This document shows, one piece after another, positions 5,117 to 10,102 of a stretch of DNA of 37,232 bases (position 1 is the first letter of the stretch; the number at the start of each line of letters is the position of its first letter). Made by a program: the position numbers and the translations under genes. Source of the DNA: Phycisphaerales bacterium (GTDB taxonomy: Bacteria > Planctomycetota > Phycisphaerae > Phycisphaerales > UBA1924); NCBI GenBank assembly GCA_021732675.1, contig JAKFUN010000046.1:1-37232 (forward strand), in the 5' to 3' direction. The notes below the pieces were generated by a model. That model worked only from the letters and a program-made list of their open reading frames with translations. It was not told where the DNA came from and ran no database searches.

Positions 5117-5189
5117 GCACGGCGGGTCGGAAGTAGCAAAGCGGCAAAGTGACGAGGTGCTCGAGCACCTCGATGCTCCGAAAAGAGAA

Positions 5190-5229: not shown

Positions 5230-5292
5230 TCCAATGGGGGTGCATCCGTTCCGGCCCCTAGTGCCCAGTGCCGAGTCCCCAGTGCCTGGCGC

Positions 5293-7722
5293 TCACGGAC
5301 ACTCGCCACCCGCGACGACGTTCACCAGCGCGTCGATGTCGGTCTGGTCGGCGTTGCCGTCGTGGTTGAAGTCGGGGTTGATGCGGAGGGTGCTGAGGCC
5401 ACCAGCGATCACGTCGATCAGCGCGGCGACGTCGTCGCTGTCGGCGTTGCCATCGCGATTGATATCGGGGTCGCAGGGGTCCGAGCAGAGGTTGGTCCAG
5501 CGAGCGAAGCCCGAGGCGATCTGGTCACCGGCCCGAACGAACGGACCCACTACCGCAAGGTCGCCCCCGGGCAGCTCAGCGACCGAAAAAGTGCTTCCGG
5601 AACCAACGCCCGACACGGTTCCGCCCACGCGTGCCCAGGTGTTCGTTTGCCACTGGTAGCGGTACACGCCCAAAGGGGCTCGCCTGTAATTGCCGCCATC
5701 GCTGACCAAAAAGAACAAGTCTCCGTTCGCGGCTTCGCCCTCGACATCCGACAACTGCCATCCAAACACGCCCTCGGGCAGCGAGAGCACATCCCACGTG
5801 CCCAGCGCAGGATGAAAGCGAACCCACCGGTAGTCCGAAGCAAGACCCATCGACCGGAAATAGCCCCCCGACACGATGTCACCATCGGGCAGCGCGCGGG
5901 CACTGAACAACCAATCTTGCGTACTGGCGTAGATCGGCGTCGTCGCGCCCGACTGCGGGTCGAGCAATGAGACCCTGGCCTCGAACACACCGTCTTGGTT
6001 GAGATTGGTGCCGTAGAGAATGACCTTGCCATCCAAATAGGGATTGATCTCGGTGAAACTTGGCAAAGAGACGTCGAGCATCGCCCACGTCGAGGTTTGA
6101 GTCTGGTAGCGAGCAAGCCGGTGTTGAGGCCGGCTGCCCGAGGTGCGTTCCAGTGCCGCGAACAAGTCGCCGTTGGGCAACGGGAGTGCGCGAGCAACCG
6201 CCCCATAGTCCTCAGGTCCCGGGATCAGGGAGGTTTCCCGAGTTGCGGGGTTGAGGATTACCGCGCCCGCTCCGACTTGACCGAGCGCCTCCGTCGCGCC
6301 GCCAAAGAACCCGACCAACCGCCCGTCGGGCAGCTGGCGGAATCTGCCCACATCAGAGATCAACGCATTGGACACAGCGGTAAATCGCCCCGTCGAGGGC
6401 TCGTACAACGCGACGTTGCGAGCGTCGACGCCTCCAACCCGCGCGAAGTCCCCGGTCACCACCACGCTTCCATCTGCGAGTGGCGACAGAGTCCCCGGCG
6501 CGCCGCTATCGCCATCAGTCAGGGCCCGCCATTCATTGCCTTCGGGGGTCCACATCGCGACTCCCTGCGCAGTCAAGGTTTGGTCTGCCAGTCCATTGAA
6601 GCCTGCGAACACAGTCCCATCGGAAATCACGCCGAATTGGGGGGAGAAGTAAGACCGCGATGCCATCGCCAGTCCGGCCGGTGTCACTTTGCCCGTCTCC
6701 AAGTTTGCCCGCAGCGCCGAGGCCTTTGTGCCGTCGCCGAGCTCGAAGAAGCCTCCAAACAAGACTTCGGGCCCGCCCAAACTCACCATCGAAGAGACAA
6801 ATCCGCTCTGCCACAACTGGGGCATCTCCGTCCAGTGTCCACTCGCAGGGCTGTATCGTGCGAGCCCTCTCACCTGCAGCGAACCCGCGGTCGTGAAAAC
6901 TCCCCCGGACAGCAGATCGCCCCCTGGGAGCGTGAGGAGCGCGTTGACGTACGTGTCGTTCCCGTCGGCGTCTCCAATCCCCCCATCCAGCGGCAACCAC
7001 CGCTGTGCCTGCGGATCCCACCTCAACACCCCGCCCCTCAGGACCGTGTTCGAGTTTGGCAGGTCTGAAACACCTACCACAACATCGCCATTCGCAAGCA
7101 CCGCCCCCACGCTCTCTCCGTACACCGAGATCCATTGCTCCGCAGGCAACGGCGTCCACTGACCACTGTTCGGGTCGTAGATGCCCGCCGGCGCCTGAAA
7201 CTGGCCGTTCGGAATGTAGTACAACCCGGTCATCAACAGGCGCCCACCACCCAGCGGCGAGATCGAACGAGTGACCCCAGCCCACGCGACATCTCCCTCA
7301 GCCAAAGTGACTGGCGTCGACAGGTCATTCACGGTATCCAATCGAACTAGGCCATAGGGCGGCGCGGAGTACCCACGATCGATGTTCGTGCCTAGGAGCA
7401 ACTGCCCGTCTTCGAGCCGATGAATGCAGTTCACCGCCGCATAGCGATCGCCAAACTCAAACGACGGAACCGCCGCGAAGATCCCGGTATCGCGGTCGTA
7501 GATCGCCAGACTCTTGGCGGGCGTCGAGCCAGCGGTCGCGAAGCTTCCTCCGACGAGCACCCGGTGTTCATCCAGCCTCAAAAAGGCAGACGCTCGCCCA
7601 TCCACCCCCGCCACCCCCGAACCGGGGAGCCAGCGTCCGGCACACTGTGCCTGGCACACCCCGGCGCTTACTAACATCCCGGCGAAGAGACCCGCCACCC
7701 GGGACCAGAATCGGTTTCGCAT
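5293..7722 (-). CDS. Large secreted protein with propeller/kelch-like repeats and C-terminal dockerin-like EF-hand pair
   Basis: Signal peptide MRNRFWSRVAGLFAGMLVSAGVCQAQ at 7722; repeated GG.LL.GG.F..AG.. motifs; C-terminal DINRDGNADSDDVAALIDVIAGG...DFNHDGNADQTDIDALVNVVAGG. Confidence 0.78.
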   Translation of the reverse strand: MRNRFWSRVAGLFAGMLVSAGVCQAQCAGRWLPGSGVAGVDGRASAFLRLDEHRVLVGGSFATAGSTPAKSLAIYDRDTGIFAAVPSFEFGDRYAAVNCIHRLEDGQLLLGTNIDRGYSAPPYGLVRLDTVNDLSTPVTLAEGDVAWAGVTRSISPLGGGRLLMTGLYYIPNGQFQAPAGIYDPNSGQWTPLPAEQWISVYGESVGAVLANGDVVVGVSDLPNSNTVLRGGVLRWDPQAQRWLPLDGGIGDADGNDTYVNALLTLPGGDLLSGGVFTTAGSLQVRGLARYSPASGHWTEMPQLWQSGFVSSMVSLGGPEVLFGGFFELGDGTKASALRANLETGKVTPAGLAMASRSYFSPQFGVISDGTVFAGFNGLADQTLTAQGVAMWTPEGNEWRALTDGDSGAPGTLSPLADGSVVVTGDFARVGGVDARNVALYEPSTGRFTAVSNALISDVGRFRQLPDGRLVGFFGGATEALGQVGAGAVILNPATRETSLIPGPEDYGAVARALPLPNGDLFAALERTSGSRPQHRLARYQTQTSTWAMLDVSLPSFTEINPYLDGKVILYGTNLNQDGVFEARVSLLDPQSGATTPIYASTQDWLFSARALPDGDIVSGGYFRSMGLASDYRWVRFHPALGTWDVLSLPEGVFGWQLSDVEGEAANGDLFFLVSDGGNYRRAPLGVYRYQWQTNTWARVGGTVSGVGSGSTFSVAELPGGDLAVVGPFVRAGDQIASGFARWTNLCSDPCDPDINRDGNADSDDVAALIDVIAGGLSTLRINPDFNHDGNADQTDIDALVNVVAGGECP

Positions 7723-7727
7723 GTCAT

Positions 7728-7764
7728 GGCTCCTTGATGGGTAGAGCCATCGACCGGAGGAGCC
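7728..7764 (-). promoter_or_regulatory. Candidate SD-sequestering hairpin in the 5' UTR of the dockerin-protein gene
   Basis: Minus-strand RNA GGCUCCU-CCGGUC-GAUGG-CUCUAC-CCAUC-A-AGGAGCC; the 3' arm contains the SD (AAGGAG) 7 nt before the ATG at 7722. Confidence 0.45.
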
Positions 7765-7974
7765 CTCCGACGTGCGTTTTCGATCGCGAAGATTACATTG
7801 GGGTTCGCTCGGATGGGTTCCACCGGCCGCGGACACACCATGCCCGTCAGACTGTGTGATCGTTGACGAAACTCCGCGTTCGCTTCGAGCCGTTCACAGA
7901 TTGAGCAAGGGGAACTCGAGAAACGAGCTGGAAGCCGGTGTCACAAAATCGGAAGGCTGATTCCTAAAGGCCGC

Positions 7975-8613
7975 CTATCGCGGCATCTCAAAGTCGGGAA
8001 CCTCGCAGATGTCGTTGTAATAGTGAAGAATCCAATCCAACGAACCCCCCTCGTACAAGCGAGTGAAGAGTTCGACGCACTTGGGGTCGTAATGGGTGCC
8101 CATTCCGGCCTGAAGTTCGACGATGGCGACGCGGGCCGCCTCCTCCCCCACCGATTCCCGATAGGGCCTCAGACTCGTCAACGCATCGAAGCTGTCGATC
8201 ACCGCAAAATATCGAGCCTCGGCCGGAATGCGATCCCCCGCCAGATTGTCGGGGTAGCCGCGACCGTCGACGCGCTCGTGATGATGCCTGACCAGGTTCA
8301 GAATCACCGCGTCATCCTCGCCCATGTCGAGCAATCGCCGGTGTCCCAATGCGGGGTGGTGTTCCATCACCTTGCGTTCTTCGGGGGTCAGGGGCCCGGG
8401 TTTTTGCAGGATCGCGTCGGGGATGTCGATCTTGCCGACATCGTGCAAGGCCGCGGCGTGCACAAGTCGCGAAATGAGCTCCTGAGGCAACCCCGCGGCT
8501 TCGGTCAGGGCGCGGGTGTAAAGGACCACCCGCCAGGTGTGAGCCGCGGTGCTCAGGTCCTTGCGTTCGATCTGACGCACCAGGTTCTGAATGTCTTCCA
8601 AAGATACCTTCAC
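7975..8613 (-). CDS. HD-GYP domain protein (putative cyclic-di-GMP phosphodiesterase or related)
   Basis: [35 protein letters not shown]...[21 protein letters not shown]...[16 protein letters not shown] start overlaps the lipA stop. Confidence 0.87.
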
Positions 8614-9755
8614 GCCTTGGCCCGGTCCTTCAAGATGTCGGTCAGGCCGTCGGCTTGATGATCGGCGTGGTAGCTGCTGCGCACGAGCGGGCCGCTCTCG
8701 ACGACCTTGAAACCGCGGGCCAGCCCCTCGGCCTTATACATGGCAAAGGTGTCGGGGTGGACCCATCGGGCGATCGGCAGGTGATTGCGGGTGGGCTGGA
8801 GGTATTGGCCGATGGTGAGGATGTCGCAGGAGTCGGTGGAGGCGGCGTTCGGTATTCGTGATTCGGCCTTCGTTCTTCCCGAGCTCGCTTCTTGCGAATG
8901 CTGAATGCCCCATGCCGAATGCCGGATCACTTTCGTCGCCGCCTGAATCTCGTCGATCATCCCCAGCACTTCGTCGTCGTGTTCGCCGATGCCGACCATG
9001 ATGCCGGTCTTGGCGACGCCCCCTTGTTCTTTCACGCGTCGCAGCAGTTCCAGCGAGCGATCAAACTTGGCGCTGGGGCGTACCGCGGGGTACATCCGCC
9101 GGATGGTTTCGAGATTGTGATTGATAATATGGGGGCGGGCGTCGATCACCATCTGCAGCGCCGGCCAGTTGCCCTCAAAGTCGGGGATGAGGACTTCGAC
9201 GGACATGGTCGGGCAGGCTTCGCGGGTGCGAACGATGGTCTCGGCCCAGATGGCGGCACCGCCGTCGGAGAGCTCGTCGCGGTTCACGCTGGTGATGACG
9301 ACATGCTTGAGACCCATGAGGGCCAGGCTCTCGGCGACCCGTCGCGGCTCGTCCTTGTCGAGCGAGCTGGGCCGTCCGGTTTTGACGTTGCAGAAGCCGC
9401 AGGCGCGGGTGCAGGTGTCGCCCAGAATCATGATGGTGGCCACGCCCCGGCTCCAGCACTCGCCCATGTTGGGGCAGCCGGCCTCTTCGCACACGGTGTG
9501 CAGGCGATGCTCGGTCATGATGCCCTTAAGGCGTTGATATCCCGGGCCACCGGGGACCTGAGCACGGAGCCACTCGGGCTTTCGCTTGATGAGAAGCTGA
9601 TCGGGGGTTCCGGCCTGGTTATTCAGGACCATGCCGGAGAGGCTGAGTTTGGGAGGATCAATCGTGCGCAGGGGGTCCCCGCCAGCGGGGCGGGGGTGGC
9701 GGGCGAGCGTGCGCTGTACGCTTGGGTCGGCAAAAGCCTTATCGGGAGGCACCAT
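8610..9755 (-). CDS. lipA: Lipoyl synthase, with an atypical internal insertion
   Basis: [13 protein letters not shown] and [10 protein letters not shown] cluster motifs, [46 protein letters not shown]; likely start MVPPDKAF (9755). Confidence 0.93.
8841..8935. repeat. Degenerate heptamer fold-back element inserted in frame within lipA
   Basis: Minus strand: GGCATTC-GGCATG-GGGCATTC-AGCATTC arm, central GCAAGAAGCGAGCTCGG, then GAAGAAC-GAAGGCC-GAATCAC-GAATACC-GAACGCC arm; encodes about 35 residues not expected in LipA. Confidence 0.6.
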
Positions 9756-10102
9756 TGGACGCAACTGTAGCGAGCCAGGCCGGGGCGCTTGCGAGGCGGG
9801 CCGGGAAAAGCGAAAGGTGAAATCCGGCGAACACCGAGCCCGCCCAAGCGTATTTCCGTTCAGCCGCATGAAAGGGTGGAACCGCTCGTGTGAAACCGGG
9901 GCCTGCGACTTGAGGGAAGTGCGTGATTTGGTTCGGGACAGGCAAGGGGGCTGGGGCATGAATCGGACCGAAATTCCCGCCCGGGGCTGAACCTGGCCCT
10001 GTCGGTGGGTCGATTCTGACGGTCCGGGAACTACTATGCTGGTCCTGCTGACCGAGGCCTTCCCCAGGATGGGCGGCTTCCGCGTCGCGATGGTGGATTG
10101 AT

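Follow-up and report, generated by a model that had tools for sequence, protein, structure and literature searches.

The 37,232-nucleotide stretch of a Phycisphaerales genome analysed here (the window; contig JAKFUN010000046.1) encodes a lipoyl synthase whose gene contains a fold-back of short degenerate repeats, and the question raised by this locus is where such DNA comes from and how it came to lie within the reading frame of a core enzyme. A sequence-only reading had described GGCATTC-type heptamers followed by an inverted arm, in frame in LipA, and this description holds, with an insert of 105 nt that adds 35 aa. The gene, the insert and the parts of the hairpin are as follows.

8610..9959, minus strand: lipA, lipoyl synthase open reading frame (profile match TIGR00510/PRK05481 and PDB relatives)
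8829..8933 (105 nt), minus strand: 35-aa in-frame loop insert after EIQAAT (alignments, relatives and AF2 model)
8895..8923, minus strand: left arm, in coding sense GGCATTC GGCATGG GGCATTC AGCATTC G (24/30 match to the arm of the IVP element described below)
8873..8894 (22 nt), no strand: hairpin centre, containing CGAGCTCG
8844..8872, minus strand: conserved right arm, reading CGAAGGC CGAATCA CGAATAC CGAACGCC in coding sense (10 aa when translated)

The protein matches TIGR00510 with an E value of 6.5e-101; the first ATG of the long open reading frame is at 9959, and the true start may be internal. HMM and PDB alignments are interrupted exactly at the insert (aa 338/377), and the stretch from KTGIM to IGQYL, which is 71 aa here, measures 43 aa in the nearest relatives and 37-54 aa in most of 47 related LipA proteins. 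The AF2 model, which is weak as a whole (pLDDT 58.7) and built on a shallow alignment, has the insert disordered (pLDDT about 30), with helix 265-278 of the query on one side and strand 317-323 on the other. In other genomes the same loop is filled with different 7- or 8-nt repeats, namely AGTTCCGA in G004, AGTGACGA in G017, AGCGAAAC with an inverted GTCTCGCT arm in G034, CCGGAAT in G040 and AGGGACGA in G052. When the LipA tree was computed with the loop removed, the seven repeat-bearing loops required seven changes, many branches of this tree being weakly supported, and turnover of one old insert could be a partial cause of finding different repeats in the same loops. As a separate matter, three LipA proteins from one family of the order (L054, L055 and L056) have about 60-100 extra residues in this loop, of non-repeat sequence ending in TYPGVH(D/E)T.

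The 29-nt arms of the hairpin are complementary at 21/29 positions, which was reached by 0 of 20,000 letter shuffles, and the stability of the hairpin exceeds that of its shuffles with a z score of -3.5 as DNA and -2.8 as RNA. No Rfam match was found in 8300-9500. Several of the differences between the arms had been described as of the G-U type, and this part of the description has to be withdrawn, since none of the eight is G-U on the mRNA strand and the three that are transitions give A-C there and G-T only on the other strand.

The DNA of the insert has many related copies; those in its own genome (G000) have the right arm, ACGAATGCCGAATCACGAATGCCGAATGCC, as their common part, and this arm also recurs in relatives, one of them from another genus; the match of the LipA right arm to the C3 copy has an E value of 2.2e-10. 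When up to 3 mismatches were allowed and overlapping matches in arrays included, copies of a 28-mer of the right arm numbered 11 in the own genome, 29 in G001, 16 in G017, which belongs to another genus, and 0 in most relatives, while a reversed control pattern had 1 match in all 41 genomes; the own genome is 71% complete and has stretches of N, and the relatives are mostly fragmented assemblies. For a repeat census, 433 kb were sampled from the own genome and 400 kb from a relative; stretches with a period of 7 or 8 nt were in excess in the 433 kb, and almost all of them came from three families. In alignments of LipA orthologues, the insert is absent or different in relatives; with the insert neither conserved in this way nor unique as DNA, both observations that the sequence-only reading had named as counting against it are absent.

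What the arms belong to is indicated by contig C50 of the own genome, where two perfect inverted 30-nt copies flank one gene of family PF05635, the '23S rRNA-intervening sequence protein' (here IVP; E 1.5e-34, also TIGR02436). The right arm in lipA matches the arm of this gene-bearing element at 27/30 positions. The four-helix-bundle protein is the only protein between the C50 arms, and no transposase, nuclease or reverse transcriptase was found within the element. To our knowledge, no function has been assigned to PF05635 proteins, many of which are annotated either as '23S rRNA-intervening sequence protein' or as 'four helix bundle protein'. Four IVP genes are present in the own genome, and three of them have arms that are the genome's three repeat families, so that each family has an IVP gene with matching arms: besides the C50 element, the AGGCACT family flanks an IVP gene on contig C80, and the AAGTGGCA family flanks an IVP gene inside dnaE on contig C8. 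Both of these families also occur in the window.

5257..5287, minus strand: arm of the second family, AGGCACT heptamers (26/31 match to the C80 IVP-flanking family)
5131..5161, plus strand: arm-like stretch of the third family, AAGTGGCA octamers (24/31 match to the C8 family)

These two single arms adjoin a hairpin that resembles a terminator, where the gene at 5293-7836 ends. Intergenic copies in L204, L205, L211, L219, L006 and L019 directly adjoin hairpins resembling rho-independent terminators, which suggests a target preference.

The pairing of gene-bearing and gene-less copies is found in relatives as well. G001 has one gene-bearing copy with a GAATGCC-type arm and many gene-less copies, and in G004 a single octamer makes up the IVP arms and recurs in the loops of both LipA and CarB. 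G017 has 16 GAATGCC-arm copies (on C1, C2, C3, C8 and others) although none of its three IVP genes has a matching arm, for which cross-mobilisation, a lost parent and recent transfer are candidate causes. Comparison of G000 with G001 indicates purifying selection on IVP (pN 0.08, pS 0.76, with synonymous sites saturated), and the arms of the IVP elements in these two genomes are nearly identical despite the saturation. A model of IVP fits 2gsc and 2rld, which have five chains each, and more distantly Avd of diversity-generating retroelement (DGR) complexes.

Armed IVP loci are not confined to this group of genomes. Inverted arms were present in 40/50 IVP loci of relatives (p<0.01 against 400 random windows), with a period of 7 nt in 20 and of 8 nt in 20. 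An all-genome scan of species-representative genomes, a few of which may duplicate those of the 50-locus set, found 80 IVP loci, of which 79 were tested; 62 had inverted arms, with period 7 in 37 and period 8 in 25, and the loci came from Planctomycetota, Bacteroidota, Clostridia, Chloroflexi, Nitrospirota, SAR324, Saccharibacteria and others. The named genomes with the closest IVP point to a Phycisphaerae-like planctomycete as the source of the DNA studied here, and an environmental Flavobacterium isolate is among the carriers of armed IVP. The arms are about 4.4 units or 31-35 nt in size, and the units follow a grammar with an AG core (G in 51/52 heptamers, [AG]AG in octamers) and carry information above that of shuffles. 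Arm and protein also vary together: the distance between arm units is 0.02 at IVP identities of at least 75%, compared with 0.44 where identity is 40-50% (P about 0.002 by permutation), and the arm period changes 15 times on the IVP tree, where shuffles need at least 28 changes. The 10/50 loci without arms belong mostly to a divergent subgroup. This subgroup (ENLxVYQKA or similar; L139, L140, L142, L143 and L167) lacks 7/8-mer arms and may have a different activity. Because copies of this arm flank the C50 gene and IVP genes generally lie between arms of this kind, the insert in the window is best read as an IVP-less copy, quite probably a non-autonomous, gene-less (MITE-like) copy of a mobile fold-back element whose full form encodes IVP.

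Tandem 7/8-mers and quasi-palindromes are also typical products of replication errors, and the heptamers may instead have grown in place by slippage, the inverted arm arising by a fold-back template switch with nothing mobile involved. Unit numbers do differ between copies, and long pure arrays exist (C14 of G003). However, the 28-mer, with its odd TGATTC unit, is found mismatch-free at many unrelated sites in two genera, a conserved gene is framed by arms with a period of only 7 or 8 in those 40 of 50 loci, and the arm sequence tracks the identity of the IVP. Identical arms at unrelated sites and shared element junctions have largely been seen already, and we consider growth in place quite unlikely.

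A role at the RNA level was also considered, in which RNase III would cut the hairpin from the transcript so that the insert is not translated. In its favour, the intervening sequences of 23S rRNA, for which IVP is the protein, have terminal inverted repeats and, in Coxiella, heptameric repeats (PMC4990558). Against it, cutting of an mRNA without ligation would split lipA, and all coding copies are open in frame with the right arm in one frame, as expected if they are translated. The differences between arms comprise 32 G-U and 36 A-C; since G-U is not favoured over A-C, we see no sign of RNA-hairpin selection and rejected it for the arms. Removal of the insert from the transcript is therefore very unlikely.

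The mobile element itself might depend on a partner encoded elsewhere. Hairpins are the usual substrate of HUH enzymes, and an HUH (Y1) transposase acting in trans could move them in a REP/RAYT- or IS200/IS605-like manner; Y1_Tnp genes are present in 34/41 relatives, and the own genome has one that lies in frame inside valyl-tRNA synthetase. Y1_Tnp was not found, however, in the IVP-carrying genomes G007, G023 and G041, the first two of which carry IVP elements with arms, and with no Y1 gene between the arms and arm-IVP covariation pointing to IVP as the partner, this route seems unlikely. Retro-mobility through a DGR-like reverse transcriptase, with IVP in an Avd-like role, is suggested by the modelled match of the IVP fold to Avd in DGR ribonucleoprotein structures and by the relation between PF05635 and Avd noted in PMC10053308, but RVT_1 was not found in 29/41 genomes, including the IVP-carrying G003, G004, G014 and G015, nor in the 71% complete own genome, and we regard it as highly improbable. 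Since a reverse transcriptase was not found in most carriers and Y1 not in some, neither seems obligatory, and both were rejected as obligatory partners. The in-frame Y1_Tnp (IS200-like HUH) domain of valyl-tRNA synthetase (G000 C12:6092-6334; L094 4136-8023, minus strand) is an observation in its own right, and a dozen relatives have Y1_Tnp matches within open frames of 1230-1529 aa, which points to an insertion that is widespread.

The gene-less copy in lipA is one of several that reside in protein-coding genes. Ten arm copies lie in verified genes, for LipA, CarB, DnaE, GcvP, ThiC and a CofH/MqnC-like protein, and in all ten the right arm is read in one frame, giving TNAESRMPNA or variants of it (with 8 sites taken as independent, P is about 5e-4); a copy in one open reading frame without a Pfam match uses the same frame. 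The copies in CarB are at the same site in G000 and G001, those in DnaE at two sites in G001, one of which is also occupied in G017, and those in ThiC at different sites in G001 and G003. Chimeric inserts with the left arm from another family occur in CarB of G000 and DnaE of G001. Tandem arms are read in all phases because the unit length is not a multiple of three, and the right arm is open in four other frames, two with cysteines and two more hydrophobic, so that survival of the mildest peptide may, we infer, explain the frame bias. An octamer fold-back from the AGTGGCAA family, to which the dnaE-nested IVP element belongs, lies in frame in PurL (L093 17415-17518).

Complete elements can also lie within genes. 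An IVP element occupies one position of DnaE/DnaE2 in G000, G008, G013, G023 and G024, which represent five genera, and the host frame is stop-free through the 481-630 nt of the element, with IVP always +1 to the host; the site is empty in G001, G002, G003 and G005. General dual coding of IVP elements was rejected, with 33/40 armed elements not open in an alternative frame and five of the seven open ones being those in DnaE/DnaE2. A second site, between dcd and an nrdJ-like gene, is filled in G000, G001, G003, G017 and L322 and empty in G004, G010 and G016. The elements there are of at least two IVP-arm types, and the presence of IVP genes at this conserved place suggests vertical inheritance besides movement, with re-use of the site as the alternative to vertical persistence. 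No clear target-site duplication was found in the flanks of filled and empty sites, the relatives being diverged, and no recent excision was found.

The full element is about 450-550 nt long and consists of a left arm of 4-5 direct 7/8-nt repeats, the IVP gene and the repeats inverted, each unit with an AG core. In our working model, IVP, whose solved relatives are pentamers, may recognise the arms, perhaps with one 7/8-nt unit per subunit, and may help to copy or insert the element; insertion of the IVP-bound hairpin in a replication-coupled manner is the least supported step. The lipA copy would have landed in a permissive loop, where it survives because the arms are stop-free in the frame used, and LipA would be translated with an extra disordered, hydrophilic loop. 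Sequence comparison shows arms of fixed period, their cross-phylum link to IVP, IVP-arm covariation, gene-less copies, several families per genome, a patchy occurrence among genomes, unoccupied sites, and elements lying in frame within essential proteins. As a broader and more tentative proposal, PF05635 proteins might be the dedicated partner of phylum-crossing minimal mobile elements, each recognising its own AG-anchored 7- or 8-nt units, roughly one per pentamer subunit, with stop-free arms through which the elements could persist inside essential genes and give proteins extra loops, also where the gene of the element itself is nested in a second frame.

These results go beyond the sequence-only reading in that the LipA element has a gene-bearing PF05635 relative and the LipA copy is one of a class. 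The arms give PF05635 proteins a candidate substrate and may connect three puzzles, namely the intervening sequences of rRNA, the patchiness of heptamer repeats, and inserts that lie in frame in proteins. If this is true, a mobile element without a recognisable transposase adds disordered loops to core enzymes (DNA polymerase III, CarB, LipA and GcvP) in several genera, and the evolution of protein insertions becomes directly testable. In the open literature searched, no paper that we came across describes IVP genes flanked by arms of 7/8-mers, and the element class is apparently undescribed.

Among systems already described, intervening sequences of 23S rRNA that contain an S23p/IVP open reading frame occur in Leptospira and Coxiella, with 28-bp terminal inverted repeats and heptameric repeats upstream of the open reading frame in Coxiella (PMC4990558). 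The gene-bearing copies resemble them as small selfish units with terminal inverted repeats around a PF05635-type gene, but the present elements occur genome-wide, in protein genes and between genes, their arms consist wholly of 7/8-nt repeats, and gene-less copies exist, including the one in lipA. Heptamer direct repeats such as TAACTGA have been described in Beggiatoaceae, Cyanobacteria and Bacteroidetes, with a proposed role in translational regulation, and for some Bacteroidetes the regions in the closest relatives are shorter and show no obvious heptamer sets; neither S23 nor helix bundle proteins are mentioned in the text consulted (PMC4679880). The heptamer tandem sets seen here are likewise patchy across phyla. 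The 23S rRNA IVP also appears in a figure legend on CRISPR-linked domains (PMC10910872), and periodic arms might be mistaken for arrays.

Like MITEs, the short gene-less copies have terminal inverted repeats that match a longer element, the putative autonomous parent on C50; unlike MITEs, the parent has no known transposase, no target-site duplication was found, and the arms are tandem repeats. REP/BIME elements are GTAG/CGTC-tagged palindromes of 20-40 bp with a linked RAYT gene, whereas the arms here are arrays of 7/8-mers, the element has no Y1 gene, and Y1 was not found in some IVP carriers. With Avd of DGRs, IVP shares the four-helix-bundle fold and multi-chain, ring-like crystal forms; unlike in DGRs, no reverse transcriptase, template repeat or variable repeat is present here. 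No paper joining intervening sequences, Rickettsia palindromic elements (RPEs), heptamer sets and IVP was found in the open literature searched. RPEs are in-frame palindromes in unrelated housekeeping genes that encode a conserved peptide, as described by Ogata et al. 2000 (cited in PMC10969869). The present elements differ from them in being built of 7/8-mers, in having a gene-bearing parent of a known protein family and in occurring in another bacterial phylum. The likeness, an architectural analogy, lies in the palindromic element found in frame in LipA, CarB, DnaE, GcvP, ThiC and the CofH/MqnC-like protein, and the comparison already drawn in the sequence-only reading works because the arm is read in the same frame in a number of housekeeping proteins.
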